A stretch of DNA of 64,000 nucleotides from Stratiformator vulcanicus (GTDB lineage Bacteria > Planctomycetota > Planctomycetia > Planctomycetales > Planctomycetaceae), in contig NZ_CP036268.1 in NCBI RefSeq assembly GCF_007744515.1, positions 634,482 through 698,481 on the forward strand, read 5' to 3'. Made by a program: the position numbers and the translations under genes. The notes under the pieces were generated by a model. That model was not told where the DNA came from, did not search any database, and worked only from the letters and a program-made list of their open reading frames with translations. Below, piece after piece: positions 2 through 34,236 of the stretch; position 1 is the stretch's first letter; every line of letters starts with the position of its first letter.

Positions 2-937
2 CTGCGTCGCAATCGAAACTCGGGCAACGTGTCGGAGGGTGATACCCGGCGGGCCCGACTTTGGGGGCCGGTTGCCGCATCATTTTGCCTCGTTCTCGCG
101 GCGGTCGGTGCGGAACTCGGGGTCATGGCTTACGAGCGATCGCAGCCGGGTGAAGTTCGTAAGTCGTACGCAGAATACTTAATCGACACCGTGACTTCTC
201 CGGGCAGATTCGCGACGGCAGTGGCCGACGGAATCACGTGGCGCTCTCAAGAAATTTGGCAGATGTTGATCCCCGGTCTCTTCAAGGCTGATAACGACCC
301 GAGCCAATGGTGGGGCTTTCCGCTTCTGTGTTTTTATTTGGTCTGGGCGTTTTGCTTGTCCCAAGGATGGTGGTCGCTCGCTCGTCGCGGTGATGTTTTC
401 GCTTGGACTCTGCCGCCGTATCTCGCGCTGCATCTGATTTGGCCGTTCGATGGTGGTGGTCGGTTTATGCTCCCGATGATCGGCCTGCTTGCGGCCTGTT
501 GGGCTCGTAGCGACATCCTGTGGTTGTTGATCCCAAGATATCGCGTCCCGGTTCTCGTGGGATGCGCGGTGCTGCATCTCGCGATCGGGTTCGGTCATTG
601 GATCGCCCGGGATGTCCCGCAACGCATCGAACTGACGCAATCCATGCAGGAACTTGAGCGTCTGATGGATCAGATCGAGCACCCGTCAGACGATCAGACG
701 TTGCTTGTCAGCCGAGGACTACCTTGGCGCGAAGTGATTCAACTGCAGTACCTCCTCGACCGTCCCGTATTGACGGCCGAGGAGGTTGTCAACACTCGAG
801 AGGACAAGTTGGTCTTCGCGGCACTCCCCGTGGAACGCGATCCTCCCATCGGCAAGACCGTGCTTGCGAGAACCGATCGATATGTCGTTTACGCTGAGAG
901 TAAGGACTCGCCTCCGCCTTCACTCCCGGACAAATAG
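2..937 (+). CDS. polytopic membrane protein, C-terminal part (GT-C glycosyltransferase-like)
   Basis: The frame is open from the first bases of the window, so the gene very probably starts upstream; a GTG at 29 is the only internal start near the edge and I do not trust it as the real one. Counting from that GTG, about five hydrophobic segments are visible (roughly residues 13-35, 93-115, 123-141, 146-168 and 172-191), followed by a soluble C-terminal part of about 110 residues. The stretch GGGRFMLPMIGLL in the middle resembles the R-x2-LP element found late in the membrane part of ArnT/PMT-type GT-C glycosyltransferases, which move sugars from lipid carriers. That assignment is an inference from topology and this short motif. 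The catalytic N-terminus is outside the window. It ends convergently with the next gene, with a long inverted repeat in between. Confidence 0.55.
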   Translation: MRRNRNSGNVSEGDTRRARLWGPVAASFCLVLAAVGAELGVMAYERSQPGEVRKSYAEYLIDTVTSPGRFATAVADGITWRSQEIWQMLIPGLFKADNDPSQWWGFPLLCFYLVWAFCLSQGWWSLARRGDVFAWTLPPYLALHLIWPFDGGGRFMLPMIGLLAACWARSDILWLLIPRYRVPVLVGCAVLHLAIGFGHWIARDVPQRIELTQSMQELERLMDQIEHPSDDQTLLVSRGLPWREVIQLQYLLDRPVLTAEEVVNTREDKLVFAALPVERDPPIGKTVLARTDRYVVYAESKDSPPPSLPDK

Positions 938-27019: not shown

Positions 27020-27937
27020 TCACGCGGTCGCCATGGCGGACTCGAGTCGGCGGGCCAGCGTTACGTAGGTGTCGCGAGGCGCGTTCATTTTTTGAAGCTC
27101 ATCTTCGATGACTCCGGCGATCGCCTCGAGATCGAACGCAGGCCACGCCCGGTCGAGTTGGATGAGCTGATTCAATCCGTTCGGCGATTGGCGAATCGCG
27201 TCCGGAAGTAACGAGGACACGGCTACCGCCGCTGCCGGGGAGCGGCCAATTTCCTTGTCGGCCATCAATCGCAGTCCGTGGTGGTGATAGGCCACGCAGG
27301 CAACGAGTTCTTCCGGAAAATCCCATTGGCGAAGCAGTTGCCCGGCGGCCACGGCATGGTCCCACTTCAGCGACTGCCGCTCCCGTTCGTCGAGCCGCCG
27401 CTCCGACGCTTTTGACTGAGCGGCCAACAGATCGACATAGTGATCCGTCATCTCATTGGCGAGCGTGGGCAGCAAAAAGTCCTGAAGCATTCCGCCGGCG
27501 AACGCGACATCGGGATCGGCCTTCAGCAGTTTCGCAAATTCGCGGGCGAACAACGCCCGTTCGAGATTTGCGGTCCAAAACGTTTTCAGGTGAATCAGCC
27601 GAGACTCTCGCGTTTTCATTGCTTTGTCGACGGCCGCACTTAGGACGAACAGCTTTGTCGTTTTCAGTCCGAGCAGCGCAATCGCCTGCGCGGCGGTCGC
27701 GATTTTGCGAGTCAGGCCCGATGCCGCTCCGTTGACCTGCTTGAGCAATTCGCATGTCAGCCCGCCGTCCGACTCGATGATCGAGCCCAATTCCTTCGCG
27801 GTGACATCTTCCGATTTCGAACGCTGAGCGAACTCGATCGCGGCATGTGGAAGCACTGGGAGCTTCACATTTGGCGGGATTTTCGATTCCGATGTCGCCC
27901 CGAGTACGGAGTCGAGTCGGCTATTCCAGTCGATCAT
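27020..27937 (-). CDS. HDOD-domain protein
   Basis: The 305-residue protein carries an HDOD domain (about residues 20-220): LPVLPHAAIEFAQRS, IIESDGGLTCELLKQVNGA, TAAQAIALLGLKTTKLFVLS and later WDHAVAAGQLLRQWDFPEELVACVAYHHHG. HDOD domains look like HD phosphohydrolases without the metal site and are used in signalling and regulation of motility or stress in many bacteria. There is no second output domain. The gene is divergent from the caspase-fold gene, 171 bases apart, so the two may share a regulatory region; this does not prove a common role. Confidence 0.88.
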   Translation of the reverse strand: MIDWNSRLDSVLGATSESKIPPNVKLPVLPHAAIEFAQRSKSEDVTAKELGSIIESDGGLTCELLKQVNGAASGLTRKIATAAQAIALLGLKTTKLFVLSAAVDKAMKTRESRLIHLKTFWTANLERALFAREFAKLLKADPDVAFAGGMLQDFLLPTLANEMTDHYVDLLAAQSKASERRLDERERQSLKWDHAVAAGQLLRQWDFPEELVACVAYHHHGLRLMADKEIGRSPAAAVAVSSLLPDAIRQSPNGLNQLIQLDRAWPAFDLEAIAGVIEDELQKMNAPRDTYVTLARRLESAMATA

Positions 27938-28108
27938 GAAGTTTTTGGCGGGACAGTTTTGGCGGGACGGTACGGTTCAAAAGTCTTGCTCCCCTAGCAT
28001 AGATTACGAATTCAACTCCGACCGTGAATTGCGTGCGATCGCAGTAGAAATCGCGATCAACTTCATCGACTCACCACTTTCAACTCCCCCGGCCCGACCG
28101 AACCGACA

Positions 28109-29476
28109 ATGCGAGCGCTCGTCGTAGGAATCGGGCAGACCCAAAAAGAGGCGGCACCGCGGACGCCATACGCGTCTGGAGCGGCCGAGGCGATCGCCAC
28201 TGCGTTACGCACCCGCGATGCCGGCATCGCGATCACCCGGCTGATCGACCATGAGGCAACAGGCGACGCACTCTGCAAAGCATTCGGCGAACTGTCTGCT
28301 GGAGCGAATGGCAACGAACATGGCATCGTCTACTTCTGCGGTGCCGCCCGGGTGGTCGAGCACGAGATCGAACTGCTGTCGGCCGACGGACGTTGGATTG
28401 CGCTCGCAGCGGGACTCAGAAAGCTTTCTGATCAACCCGTCACCCTGTTTCTTGATCTTACCGCAGCAGACGATGCCGATGGGCTGAGCGGATTGCCGAC
28501 GACCGCGGACGCCATCTGCGTTTTCTCGCCGAAGTGGGTCATTGCGGTGGCCGATGACGGTCAATCGATCTCACACGTGAGCGGTGTGGAGCAGGCACGC
28601 ATTTGGAGCCATCACGTCGCAGAAGCCATTGTCGGCGATTTGTCCTCCGTAACCGATCGCACAGGATCGCTGACGGCCAAGCGATTTGATTCCGCGATCC
28701 GGTCGGCGACCAAGAGATCGCTCCGTGAGGCTTTCACATCGAAACGGATTCAGCATCCCGCCGTCTATCAGGGAAATCCGAAGGCGAAATTATTGCCGCC
28801 GCCGGGAGCCGTTGATTCGGCCGAATCGCACGGCGCGACGATTCGCTTGGCGGTGAGCCGCGAACTTTCAATCCGCGATCTGTCGGGCTTCGCACGAAAC
28901 TACTCCGTGCCGCAAACTTGGAATCGGTCCGGTCGGCAATTTCTTAATGAGTGCGCTGCGGCTGATTTAAAGAACCGCATCGAAGAAGTCACCCGCCGCA
29001 GCCGCCGAGCCTTTCGCTGGAAGCGGCAGGATGTCCGGACGCTCGACCCGATAGAAGGTTCGGCATCGGTCGTGACCCCGGACTTCACGTTTTCGGTTAC
29101 TTGCACACCGATTTCATCGCTGTCGTCCGGCTGCATTTGCTGGCAGGAAACGGTCGAAGAGATTGCCGAACCTGATCTGTGTTTGGGAGAGAAGTTCCAG
29201 GGCGTATTCGGCGCGAATTTTCATCGTCTCACGATGAACTTAAGAGAATCAATCTCGGTGCCGGAACTGATCGATAAGATCGAAAACGAAATGCCCCGCT
29301 CCGTTCAGAGTTTGGATTATCCACCGGAAGCAGACCGCTGCGAATTTCAATTGCGGGGCTCGAAGCTGACCGCCGGGATCGACGGCAGCTCCATTTCAAT
29401 CACTGCCGAAACGGAATTCTCAGCCGCTGAATTAATGACGGCACTATTCGAATTTCAAACTGCACTGCAAGCGTGA
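28109..29476 (+). CDS. caspase-fold (peptidase C14-like) protein without catalytic His/Cys
   Basis: The 455-residue protein begins directly with the first strand of a caspase-like domain (RALVVGIGQ, residues 2-10). It goes on through SGAAEAIATALRT, ITRLIDHEATGDALCKAFG, HGIVYFCGAARV (71-82), LFLDLTAADD (113-122), ICVFSPKWVIAV, IWSHHVAEAIVGD and HPAVYQGN near residue 222, the order known from bacterial C14 proteins. The catalytic motif SGHG is CGAA here (Ala79 in place of His) and the D-x-C motif is DLT (Thr118 in place of Cys), so it should lack protease activity. Residues ~240-455 form an unrecognised domain with mixed beta/alpha character. There is no signal peptide. It may be a regulator or decoy for active caspase-like proteases. 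The fold call is fairly firm. Confidence 0.7.
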   Translation: MRALVVGIGQTQKEAAPRTPYASGAAEAIATALRTRDAGIAITRLIDHEATGDALCKAFGELSAGANGNEHGIVYFCGAARVVEHEIELLSADGRWIALAAGLRKLSDQPVTLFLDLTAADDADGLSGLPTTADAICVFSPKWVIAVADDGQSISHVSGVEQARIWSHHVAEAIVGDLSSVTDRTGSLTAKRFDSAIRSATKRSLREAFTSKRIQHPAVYQGNPKAKLLPPPGAVDSAESHGATIRLAVSRELSIRDLSGFARNYSVPQTWNRSGRQFLNECAAADLKNRIEEVTRRSRRAFRWKRQDVRTLDPIEGSASVVTPDFTFSVTCTPISSLSSGCICWQETVEEIAEPDLCLGEKFQGVFGANFHRLTMNLRESISVPELIDKIENEMPRSVQSLDYPPEADRCEFQLRGSKLTAGIDGSSISITAETEFSAAELMTALFEFQTALQA

Positions 29477-29534
29477 GCGGCTTGCTCCATTGCTCGCTCT
29501 CGACCTCTTTCGGTTAGAACGAAATTTTCTTTAA

Positions 29535-31124
29535 TTAGCGATTGCCGAGTACAAAGTCACGAAGTCCTTGGGGCGATTGCGGAGCCTCGACTGCGGTCAA
29601 TCCCCCGCTAAGCACGAGTCCGTCGATCTGCACGGCGGCTTGGTTGGCGGCCACGAGTACGTTGACGTATTCGAGGTTGGTCTTGAAGAATTGCTGCCTC
29701 GCGGTCAGTACTCGTAAGAAGTTAAATTGTCCCGCCCGGTAGCCCTGATCGATGAGATCGAGCGTGCGATCGACTTTCGGAATTAACACATCCCGATAAG
29801 TTTCGGCCTGCTGGCGAGCGCGGTCATAGTTTTGCATCGACACCGCCAATCGATTCGACAGGTTGCGACGAATGCGGTCGACCTCAAATGCGTTACTCGC
29901 CAGTTCTGCCTGAGCGGCGGCGATATTCCCCTGATTGCGATTGTGGCAGGGCAACATAACGGTCGCCTGCACGTTCGCGATCGTCACGTCTGCGGCGTCG
30001 TCATAGGCAACGCCCGCCTGCGTGGTGACGTTCGGAATTTCCCAGCGTTCCTGTAACGCAACGTTATTCCGCGAGCGTTGAATTCGCGTCGACGCCCGTT
30101 GGATTTCCGGGCTGTTCGCTATTAAGCGTTCATAGGCAATTTCGAATTGATGCTCGGGCAACTCCGTCGCCTCGAGACTGCCGTGCAAAATGACGTCACC
30201 GAGGGAGTCGACTCCCATGAAGCCGGCGAGCTGACGTTTCGCCGCCTCAAAATCGATTTCTGCATTGCGGAGCAGAATTTGAATTTCGGCAAGTTGCGTT
30301 TCGGCTTGAAGTTTGTCGGGTAAGCCGGCTTCTCCCGCTTTCACAATCGCATCGGTGCTTTCGAGACCTTTCAGCGAGATCGCATCGAGTCGTCGGGCGA
30401 TCTCGACTCGTTTTTGTGCGCCCAGGGCCTGATAGAACGCGGATCGAACGTCATTCAAAACGCGTTGACGCTGCGTCTGGTAAATCCAATTGGCTTCCTG
30501 TGCGTCCCACGATCCGACCGATCGGGCCAGCCCCAATTTGTCGGCGGTCACGAACAACTGTGAAAGCATGACCCCCTGCTGCCCGGCGGCCCCATCAATC
30601 CCAATTTCGTTGCCGGAATAGATGAGTTGCGTGTTGGGCTTAAGCCCCTGCTGAACAGCCATGCCGTTCGCAGAGCGCTTTTGCCATGCCGCGATTTGCA
30701 GCGTGGGGTTTGACGCGAGAGCCGTCGCCTCCGCTTCATCGAGCATTAGCGAGCGATGCTCGGATCGGGAGGCCGGTGGGTCGTCGACAATGAACTCATC
30801 CGATTCCCGGTCGGCCGGACTCGGAGGCAGCGCCGCGATGCTGAAGTCTTCGTAAGCGATTGTTCGGATTGAATCGGCTTCAGAAACTTCGCTCGCTGAG
30901 CTTTCGGGCGCGAAATTCGATTGATCTGCTGAGGCGACCTCTATGTTAATCTTCGCCAAACCGCTCGTTGATTTCGCGGGACTTTCTGCAAGGTGATTCG
31001 CGACTCGATCGTTCGTCGGCTCTACAGAGACGTCAGTTCGCGTCTTCGCCACGTCGACCGTCGTGCATGACACCGCAGCGATCAGCAGTAAGACCGTGGC
31101 GGCCATCAGCGGCGTGCGATACAT
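29535..31124 (-). CDS. TolC-family outer membrane lipoprotein (CzcC-like)
   Basis: The 529-residue protein starts at the ATG at 31124 behind GGGGAGACGGCC. It has a lipoprotein signal (LMAATVLLLIAAVSC, Cys20) and a Ser/Glu-rich linker to about residue 120. The outer membrane factor domain then has both usual halves: LMLDEAEATALASNPTLQIAAWQK and LARSVGSWDAQEANWIYQTQ, and a second half with IAYERLIANSPEIQRASTRI and KVDRTLDLIDQGYRAGQFNF. The GYRAGQFNFLRVL element is typical of CzcC/CusC-like proteins of metal or drug RND pumps. No RND pump or adaptor gene is next to it, so it probably works with parts encoded elsewhere. It converges on the caspase-fold gene with 58 bases between. Confidence 0.87.
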   Translation of the reverse strand: MYRTPLMAATVLLLIAAVSCTTVDVAKTRTDVSVEPTNDRVANHLAESPAKSTSGLAKINIEVASADQSNFAPESSASEVSEADSIRTIAYEDFSIAALPPSPADRESDEFIVDDPPASRSEHRSLMLDEAEATALASNPTLQIAAWQKRSANGMAVQQGLKPNTQLIYSGNEIGIDGAAGQQGVMLSQLFVTADKLGLARSVGSWDAQEANWIYQTQRQRVLNDVRSAFYQALGAQKRVEIARRLDAISLKGLESTDAIVKAGEAGLPDKLQAETQLAEIQILLRNAEIDFEAAKRQLAGFMGVDSLGDVILHGSLEATELPEHQFEIAYERLIANSPEIQRASTRIQRSRNNVALQERWEIPNVTTQAGVAYDDAADVTIANVQATVMLPCHNRNQGNIAAAQAELASNAFEVDRIRRNLSNRLAVSMQNYDRARQQAETYRDVLIPKVDRTLDLIDQGYRAGQFNFLRVLTARQQFFKTNLEYVNVLVAANQAAVQIDGLVLSGGLTAVEAPQSPQGLRDFVLGNR

Positions 31125-31364
31125 GGCCGTCTCCCCGGAGTTCGTGCGTCGATCCCATCGCGGTCGATGACGGCTCTTCAGCTCGAATCGCATCGACGAC
31201 TACTGACAGGGAAACCGCTCGAATCGCGGCATTCGCTATCCTTCGTATCATCGTCGAATCACGAACGACCGGCACAGTAGCGCGCGATGAACCGGCGGAA
31301 CCGATATAGACCTCACAAACGGCCCAATTGGCAGCGATTCGCCAATGCTCGCGGACGGGCTGTT

Positions 31365-33280: not shown

Positions 33281-33310
33281 CTTTGTTCAGTCTTGCGATG
33301 CAAAATCGAA

Positions 33311-34147
33311 TCAGGTTCCGATCGTCCACAGCTTGAACGACTTCGCCTTGAGGCCCTTCTCAGCGAGTGCCTGCTTGACGGTCTTGCTGTCGTCTTTGGC
33401 GAAGGGCTGAAAGACGAGCACGCCGGCTTCGACGTAGAACGCTTTCATCCGGCCATCGACGATCTTCTCGATGATGTTTTCCGGCTTGCCGGTCGCGCGG
33501 GCTTCTTCGGAAAGTCGTTCCCGCTCGGCTTTGACCTCTTCCTCCGGCAAATCTTCAGCGTGCGTGCATTTCGGTCGCAGGGCGGCGATGTGCATCGCGA
33601 CATCCCGCATGACCTGCTCGTCGGGGCTGTCTCCTTCGGCCTGAAAGAGGACGCCGACCTTGTGGTTGTGATGCACGTAACCGGCGACCGGACCTTCGAG
33701 CTTGCAGACGTTTTGGACGACGATCTTCTCGCGGATTTTGCCCGACATCTCGTCGAACAGTTCCTGCAATGTTTTGCCGCTGCCGTCGGGAGCCTGCTGG
33801 CCGAGCAGTTCCTCAGGTGTATCGGCACCGGGGCCTTCAACGACCTGCTTCAAGCAGAGTTCGCCGAAACCGACGAGATGCTCCGACCCGGAGACCGGTT
33901 CGGACTCGCATTGAATCTCGACCATCGCGGCCGACGAGAGGTCGTCTGCGACGTGCTGGAAGATTCGGCCCTCGGCCGTGACGTTACCGGCACGGTCGGC
34001 GAGCTTGCCCTTGGATCGCTCGCGAAGCCACTCCATGGCCTGCTCTTCGTCGCCGTCGGAGGCGACGAGGGCTTTCTTACATTCCATCATCGGGAGGTCG
34101 GTGCGCTCCCGGAGTTGCCGCACCGCGGCTGCGGTAATTTCGGCCAT
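33311..34147 (-). CDS. tsf: translation elongation factor Ts
   Basis: EF-Ts exchanges GDP for GTP on EF-Tu. The 278-residue protein starts at an ATG behind GAAGGAGAATGAATT. The N-terminal UBA-like domain and first signature are clear ([22 protein letters not shown]), then the core begins at [20 protein letters not shown]; later [14 protein letters not shown]-like and [17 protein letters not shown] segments close the dimerisation part. The usual second signature region (GRIG/GKIGVLVE) is present in altered form as [16 protein letters not shown]. It follows rpsB by 89 bases, the widespread arrangement. Confidence 0.96.
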
Positions 34148-34236
34148 AATTCATTCTCCTTCGACTCATGAGACGCCGGTGCTGTGCCGCCGCGTCTGCT
34201 TTGATGAAATCCTTAGTTCCGCGAAGTTCGCGAACG

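Follow-up and report, generated by a model that had tools for sequence, protein, structure and literature searches.

A pseudo-orthocaspase of Stratiformator vulcanicus with a predicted caspase fold and a conserved, previously unnamed C-terminal domain

The window, a stretch of 64,000 nucleotides from Stratiformator vulcanicus, contains a frame of 455 codons that starts with an ATG at 28109 and ends with its stop codon at 29476. In the alignment, this start agrees with the starts of relatives. The features of the gene and its divergent neighbour are listed in Table 1. Codon-position GC of the gene was 0.60, 0.50 and 0.64, and compared with six neighbouring genes its GC2 was higher and its coding pattern weaker. 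On the 3′ side, a 552-aa ORF (29535-31193, minus strand), a putative outer-membrane efflux protein gene, converges with the gene. The divergent gene on the 5′ side encodes an HDOD-domain protein, and the preliminary description of the locus had proposed that both genes share a control region. The HDOD protein gave no blastp match at 1e-8 across the 69 other loci of the family, and a promoter scan of positions 27900-29560 returned one promoter-like site, located within the gene on the opposite (minus) strand, compared with 0.6 sites in shuffled sequences. The HDOD neighbour with a shared control region is no conserved feature of the family, and co-regulation with this gene was rejected. Elsewhere in the window, an open frame of 292 codons (33293-34171, plus strand) lies antisense to an elongation factor Ts-like gene (33311-34147, minus strand) and is probably a shadow frame of this GC-rich gene.

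Table 1. Features of the pseudo-caspase gene and its divergent neighbour in the window.
Feature	Position	Strand	Basis or remark
Whole gene, pseudo-caspase with conserved C-terminal domain	28109..29476	+	455 aa plus stop; ORF list
Caspase-fold domain (predicted), residues 1-235	28109..28813	+	AlphaFold2 model, pLDDT 78 overall; Foldseek and VIA matches
Ala79 codon, catalytic His position (CGAA for AGHG)	28343..28345	+	Alignment column
Asp93 codon, invariant acidic residue 3′ of the His loop	28385..28387	+	Alignment, 50/50 rows
Thr118 codon, catalytic Cys position (LDLT for LDAC)	28460..28462	+	Alignment column
Conserved C-terminal domain, residues about 245-455	28841..29473	+	Alignments, predicted models
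HDOD-domain gene, divergent neighbour only, 171 bp off	27020..27937	-	Pfam HDOD 2.9e-42

Structure prediction confirmed a caspase fold (clan CD) for the N-terminal half of the protein, as had been claimed for residues 1-222. An AlphaFold2 model calculated from 22 sequences had a mean pLDDT of 78 and a pTM of 0.51. Foldseek comparison of this model with the PDB retrieved MALT1, CED-3, caspase-8, caspase-9 and the bacterial protein GSU0716. VIA-align matched residues 1-234 to Arabidopsis metacaspase 4 (6w8r; Z 21.8, rmsd 3.1, 212 residues aligned). Caspase-6 (chain range 45..292), MALT1 and GSU0716 were further matches of the model in these structure comparisons. A better model was obtained for a relative from Fimbriiglobus (pLDDT 84, pTM 0.56), which aligned with MALT1 over 213 residues (Z 21.6, rmsd 3.0). 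The fold was borne out by these predictions, while the boundary of the domain lies nearer residue 235 than 222. With pTM values of 0.51 and 0.56, the models do not define the relative arrangement of the two domains.

In HMM searches covering both halves, the window protein matched no Pfam family up to E 10, Peptidase_C14 (PF00656) included, and its sole NCBIfam row (residues 180-218 in the caspase half) was weak at 0.004 and far below the cut-off. Two out of six full-length relatives matched Peptidase_C14 above the cut-off (L005 from genome G049, 1.3e-16; L004 from G047, 8.5e-5), L006 from G056 matched below it (0.0037), and L002, L003 and L009 gave no match. PDB sequences were also searched with two profiles (A2, A1) and, separately, with the N-terminal caspase half of the intact relative L066, which yielded nothing usable for residue-level metacaspase mapping.

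The second half of the protein, residues about 245-455, is a real conserved domain that was previously unnamed. In a 66-row alignment of this C-domain, which comprises approx. 215 residues, two prolines, one arginine and one aspartate were invariant and a TP-F-Y motif was nearly so. Pfam, NCBIfam, PADLOC and PHROGs, the four protein-family libraries that were searched, hold no matching model, and a profile search against PDB sequences gave no hit below E 1.6, so that the earlier statement that this half resembles no known domain still stands. Library rows such as HflK_N and Lambda_CIII, each seen in one member out of 11, were discarded as chance matches. Among 70 ORFs with a C-domain, 50 carry the caspase domain, 17 stand alone and three (L086, L097, L108) are cut by contig ends and were left out of the stand-alone count. 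L097 and L106 come from one genome (G295), as do L108 and L109 (G119), and each couple may represent a single gene in two pieces. The fetched sequence flanking the 17 stand-alone loci contained no ORF with a caspase domain, demonstrating that the C-domain occurs independently of the caspase half. Two further candidates were not accepted: L012 was a chance match on the wrong frame and was dropped before all counts, and a second L074 ORF in the family cluster was taken for a shadow frame from its sequence.

Both residues of the catalytic dyad are replaced in the window protein. When aligned to relatives with AGHG, the sequence CGAA (residues 77-80) places Ala79 in the His column, and when aligned to relatives with LDAC, the sequence LDLT (residues 115-118) places Thr118 in the Cys column. 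The preliminary description had read the same substitutions as SGHG to CGAA and D-x-C to DLT. No substitute His/Cys pair was apparent in the caspase domain by alignment of 50 rows. The three cysteines of the domain (56, 77 and 137) occupy columns with Cys in at most two of 50 rows, the best conserved Cys column (41/50) contains Ser91 in the window, and His169 is common to 37/50 rows. Pseudo-orthocaspases are caspase homologues with one or more catalytic residues substituted, and the window protein is one of them.

Loss of the dyad is widespread in the family. It is absent from the window protein and from 46 of the 49 other full-length rows; only L066, L096 and L103, i.e. 3/50 full-length members of the class, keep both His and Cys. 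Two more full-length members from the wider phylum, L136 (intact) and L137 (half intact, Pro/Cys), bring this to 4/52. The pair is therefore missing nearly throughout the clade rather than in all of its members, the result that the preliminary description had named as support. These counts include L106 and L109, which are cut within the C-domain, with an unsure alignment of L109 at the His column, and six of the 50 rows are gapped at the Cys column. The replacements at the His and Cys positions vary (R/D, R/E, Y/S, H/G, H/T, P/-, A/T). The commonest state, Arg/Asp, was found in 20/50 rows, all from Gemmataceae (f3), with Arg/Glu in two more. As a control, 29 other Peptidase_C14 proteins were sampled from 15 genomes, leaving out 15 of 45 match places without a locus; 23 of them keep the pair, in a set that leans towards intact proteins because it follows Pfam scores. 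The difference had a Fisher p of 4e-11, calculated for 3/50 versus 22/28 before L160 was counted as intact and treating related sequences as independent. A dyad retained in only 64% of planctomycete caspase homologues is an earlier observation (PMC3501461).

The old site might have acquired a different enzymatic activity based on Ser, Thr or another group. Ser or Thr occupies the Cys position in 9/50 rows, two of which (L104 and L105) also keep His. In contrast, His is gone in 41/50 rows including the window, the window protein showed no alternative conserved partner, and the replacements differ between lineages, which makes this explanation highly improbable.

In a tree of 70 C-domains the four intact members appeared in four separate places. 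Starred branches of the tree joined intact and dead sisters in three cases, L066 with L079 (Tyr/Ser), L096 with L093 (His/Gly) and L103 with L102 (Arg/Arg). Assuming that the dyad can be lost but never regained, we counted 10 losses on the best tree and 8-11 over 300 of 1000 bootstrap trees. Under this assumption, about ten independent losses of the dyad occurred in the family. For 14 pairs of dead relatives, which overlap in part and include some dS values near or above 1, dN/dS ranged from 0.05 to 0.28 in the N-terminal half and from 0.01 to 0.29 in the C-terminal half. The dead caspase domain of the relatives is under purifying selection and not free to drift. The end branch of the window protein has a length of 1.81 and no close relative, so that selection is measurable in the relatives and not on its own lineage. 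Asp93, Thr51 and Gly176 were identical in 50/50 rows, Gln215 in 49/50, and Trp166 and Pro217 in 48/50. Judged by motif position only, we take Asp93 to stand at the place of the acidic residue in the orthocaspase specificity pocket. This assignment would account for one acidic pocket residue, present in 50/50 rows, a second Asp not having been located. Dyad loss, selection, conserved residues and the predicted structure together provide good support for the earlier proposal that the family is a bacterial pseudo-caspase kept as a functional protein.

In the lineage of the window itself, the caspase half might be a decaying leftover attached to a C-domain that alone still matters. The window protein sits on a long branch and belongs to the more degenerate members with several non-consensus residues (Gly9, Lys202 and Ser91 stand in columns where 41, 45 and 41 of the 50 rows, respectively, share another residue). 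The deviating GC2 and coding pattern of the gene fit such a decay, as does the finding that 33 of the 38 matches in the family of the window are open frames of less than 400 aa, mostly without the caspase half. However, the frame of 455 codons is intact, the model shows a full caspase fold, the six conserved residues from Thr51 to Pro217 are all kept, and dead domains elsewhere in the family are under purifying selection. On this evidence we regard a leftover as unlikely.

The C-domain was detected in at least 65 of 297 genomes of the class. For Gemmataceae the count was at least 46/95, including 19/19 genomes of genus g39, and for the family of the window at least 38/170. Up to 9 candidates per genome were scored for the class and the phylum, up to 30 for Gemmataceae and up to 17 for the family of the window. 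Among 294 genomes spread over the phylum at least six contain it, two of the six being from the class. Named strains with dead members are Gemmata sp. IIL30 and Limnoglobus roseus PX52. A thymidine phosphorylase gene lies divergently beside the gene in 17/70 loci, with uracil phosphoribosyltransferase and cytidine deaminase close by in some of them (names assigned by eye from sequence). This neighbour adjoins the gene across Gemmataceae genera (L044, L050, L057, L058 and L098). A constant operon partner was not found among the neighbours of the 70 loci. Twenty neighbouring ORFs, ten of them on the same strand within 50 bp, were scanned with Pfam; 15 matched a family and no family recurred (sigma-54 regulator, AIR synthase relative, AIR carboxylase, DEAD helicase, exonuclease VII small subunit, sulfatase and others). 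These calls come from a crude codon-based finder. At L055 it picked a same-strand frame without Pfam match where homology reveals the divergent thymidine phosphorylase.

Inactive effector caspases are common in vWA-MoxR systems (PMC7159879), and by analogy the protein could serve an anti-phage system as decoy or sensor. EACC1-associated caspases (NF047832; Kaur et al. 2020, PMC7159879) are the best curated NCBIfam match of the intact and Gemmata relatives. L066 (3.8e-27), L096 (4.8e-27) and L113 (1.1e-6) matched this model, caspase_w_EACC1, and also the PADLOC caspase model; all NF047832 matches of relatives were below the cut-off (best 95.2 bits versus 140). The window protein, however, matched neither model. 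The EACC1 partner gene was found in 0/15 genomes, the control genomes being equally silent. Furthermore, the neighbours examined gave no sign of a defence or mobile context, and the synteny with pyrimidine-salvage genes in Gemmataceae speaks against a defence island. A vWA gene adjoins the family gene in one locus only (L102) among the 20 neighbouring ORFs scanned. Plasmid searches with the window protein and phage searches with a Gemmata protein gave no match. The gene looks vertically inherited and cellular rather than part of a mobile defence island, and a role in an anti-phage system is very unlikely. The decoy function that the preliminary description had considered consequently found little support.

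c-FLIP and other animal pseudo-caspases have a caspase fold without a working dyad that is kept by selection; c-FLIP, with its death-effector domains, forms a pair with caspase-8. A comparable pairing, in which the dead protein tunes an active protease of the caspase fold in its own cell, would be a form of the regulator role, one of those considered in the preliminary description. Unlike in c-FLIP, no death-effector domain was found in the window protein with Pfam. Moreover, the C-domain gene is normally single-copy. Two complete copies were found in only 1/65 genomes among the matches listed, and this genome (G273) carries a dead copy (L068, Lys/Gly) and an intact copy (L096, His/Cys) about 126 kb apart on the same contig, C19. 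The presence of both copies in G273 is in favour of such a pairing and makes this genome the obvious one in which to examine it. Tuning requires an active partner. Candidates in the genome of the window are two CHAT proteins and one other C14 protein; the latter has a start that resembles a signal peptide by eye, which counts against it. Knock-out of a Synechocystis pseudo-orthocaspase changed stress survival (PMC7889975), which would fit a regulatory role; the persistence of the C-domain without a caspase domain in 17/70 loci does not. A c-FLIP-like or pseudo-orthocaspase-like pairing is therefore distinctly unlikely, and regulation of an active caspase has received little support.

It is on balance probable that the caspase half is a non-proteolytic binding module which controls the C-terminal output domain of a chromosomal two-domain protein. 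The fold was kept while the catalytic pair was dropped repeatedly and with different replacements, suggesting that the protein can do without cutting, but not without binding. As the C-domain can lose the caspase half entirely, the latter would add control and not the core function. The orthocaspase domain, deprived of its two catalytic residues, would act as binding module, and the old substrate groove with the retained Asp93 probably recognises a peptide or protein. The C-terminal half, always kept and able to work alone, would be the output domain controlled by ligand binding in the dead groove. Among the roles proposed earlier (regulator, sensor or decoy), a sensor or binding module is thus the best option, although we only infer it. 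One planctomycete family provides a natural series in which the caspase domain is intact, half-dead, dead or deleted in front of the same output domain, and makes testable what a caspase fold does when it is not cutting.

Concerning the output domain, both the window and the Fimbriiglobus models displayed the order strand, helix, four strands, helix, twice. This is the order of the TATA-binding protein (TBP) fold. A Foldseek search of viral models with the Fimbriiglobus model returned viral caspases first. Several unnamed viral proteins were also listed, as were two TBP models of viral origin (E 1.9e-3 and 3.8e-3, with probabilities of 0.89 and 0.96). TM scores of the TBP rows over the whole model were low (0.14 and 0.15), and as the aligned part of the model is not displayed, we infer that they cover the C-domain rather than the caspase half. 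The VIA structure lists were filled by caspases and barely bear on the C-domain. Unlike TBPs in sequence, the C-domain lacked profile similarity to seven haloarchaeal TBPs (score 16.0; 30 column-shuffled controls reached 22.3, mean 13.7), and comparison of its two halves by profile gave no significant internal duplication (score 10.7). It is also acidic with a median pI of about 5.2, which does not suggest a DNA binder. The C-domain may have a tandem TBP-like fold, a lead provided by the predicted models. Combined with the binding-module reading, this leads to a wider and unlikely proposition: planctomycetes might have repeatedly turned a protease into a receptor, in which a peptide signal bound in the dead groove switches a tandem TBP-like output domain. 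In the Gemmataceae members, which make up 22 of the 50 family rows with Arg/Asp or Arg/Glu in place of the catalytic pair, these two residues might then form a salt bridge that keeps the former active site locked. No sensor architecture of this kind, with a dead caspase as receptor, was found in the open-licence literature searched.

The family is a bacterial pseudo-caspase like known ones with a new domain attached. Like the pseudo-orthocaspases described in PMC6426788, most of its members are bacterial proteins of the caspase p20 fold in which one or both catalytic residues are replaced. The abstract of that study names a Tyr/Ser replacement, whereas here Arg/Asp is commonest (20/50) and the window has Ala/Thr. 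Pseudo-orthocaspases elsewhere keep the pocket acids, and several independent origins were suggested for them (PMC6426788). In that work, 775 of 858 pseudo-orthocaspases came from Alphaproteobacteria and Cyanobacteria (Klemencic et al. 2019, PMC6426788). The present family resides in planctomycetes, and its caspase domain adjoins a single new C-terminal domain. For Gemmata, caspases fused to TRADD-N domains have been described (PMC8195603). A report on the present pseudo-caspase/C-domain family was not found in the open-licence literature.

Further caspase-family proteins were noticed during the survey. The only Peptidase_C14 match in the genome of the window (L135, 1039-2109; G000:C1 near 293734) keeps AGHG and ECC intact, and its signal-peptide-like start, judged by eye, is followed by a 248-aa open frame. 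Another group of pseudo-caspases comprises L162 (G063), L167 (G091), L168 (G067) and L169 (G047), each of which is matched by Pfam Peptidase_C14. In these proteins, too, the catalytic His is replaced by Arg (FFGRG); the Cys motif reads MD-x-Q, and the starts resemble signal peptides by eye. Finally, the C14 proteins L148 (G273) and L158 (G091) retain GHG and have lost Cys (LADGG and LDAGHSG, respectively), indicating that half-dead caspases also exist outside the C-domain family.
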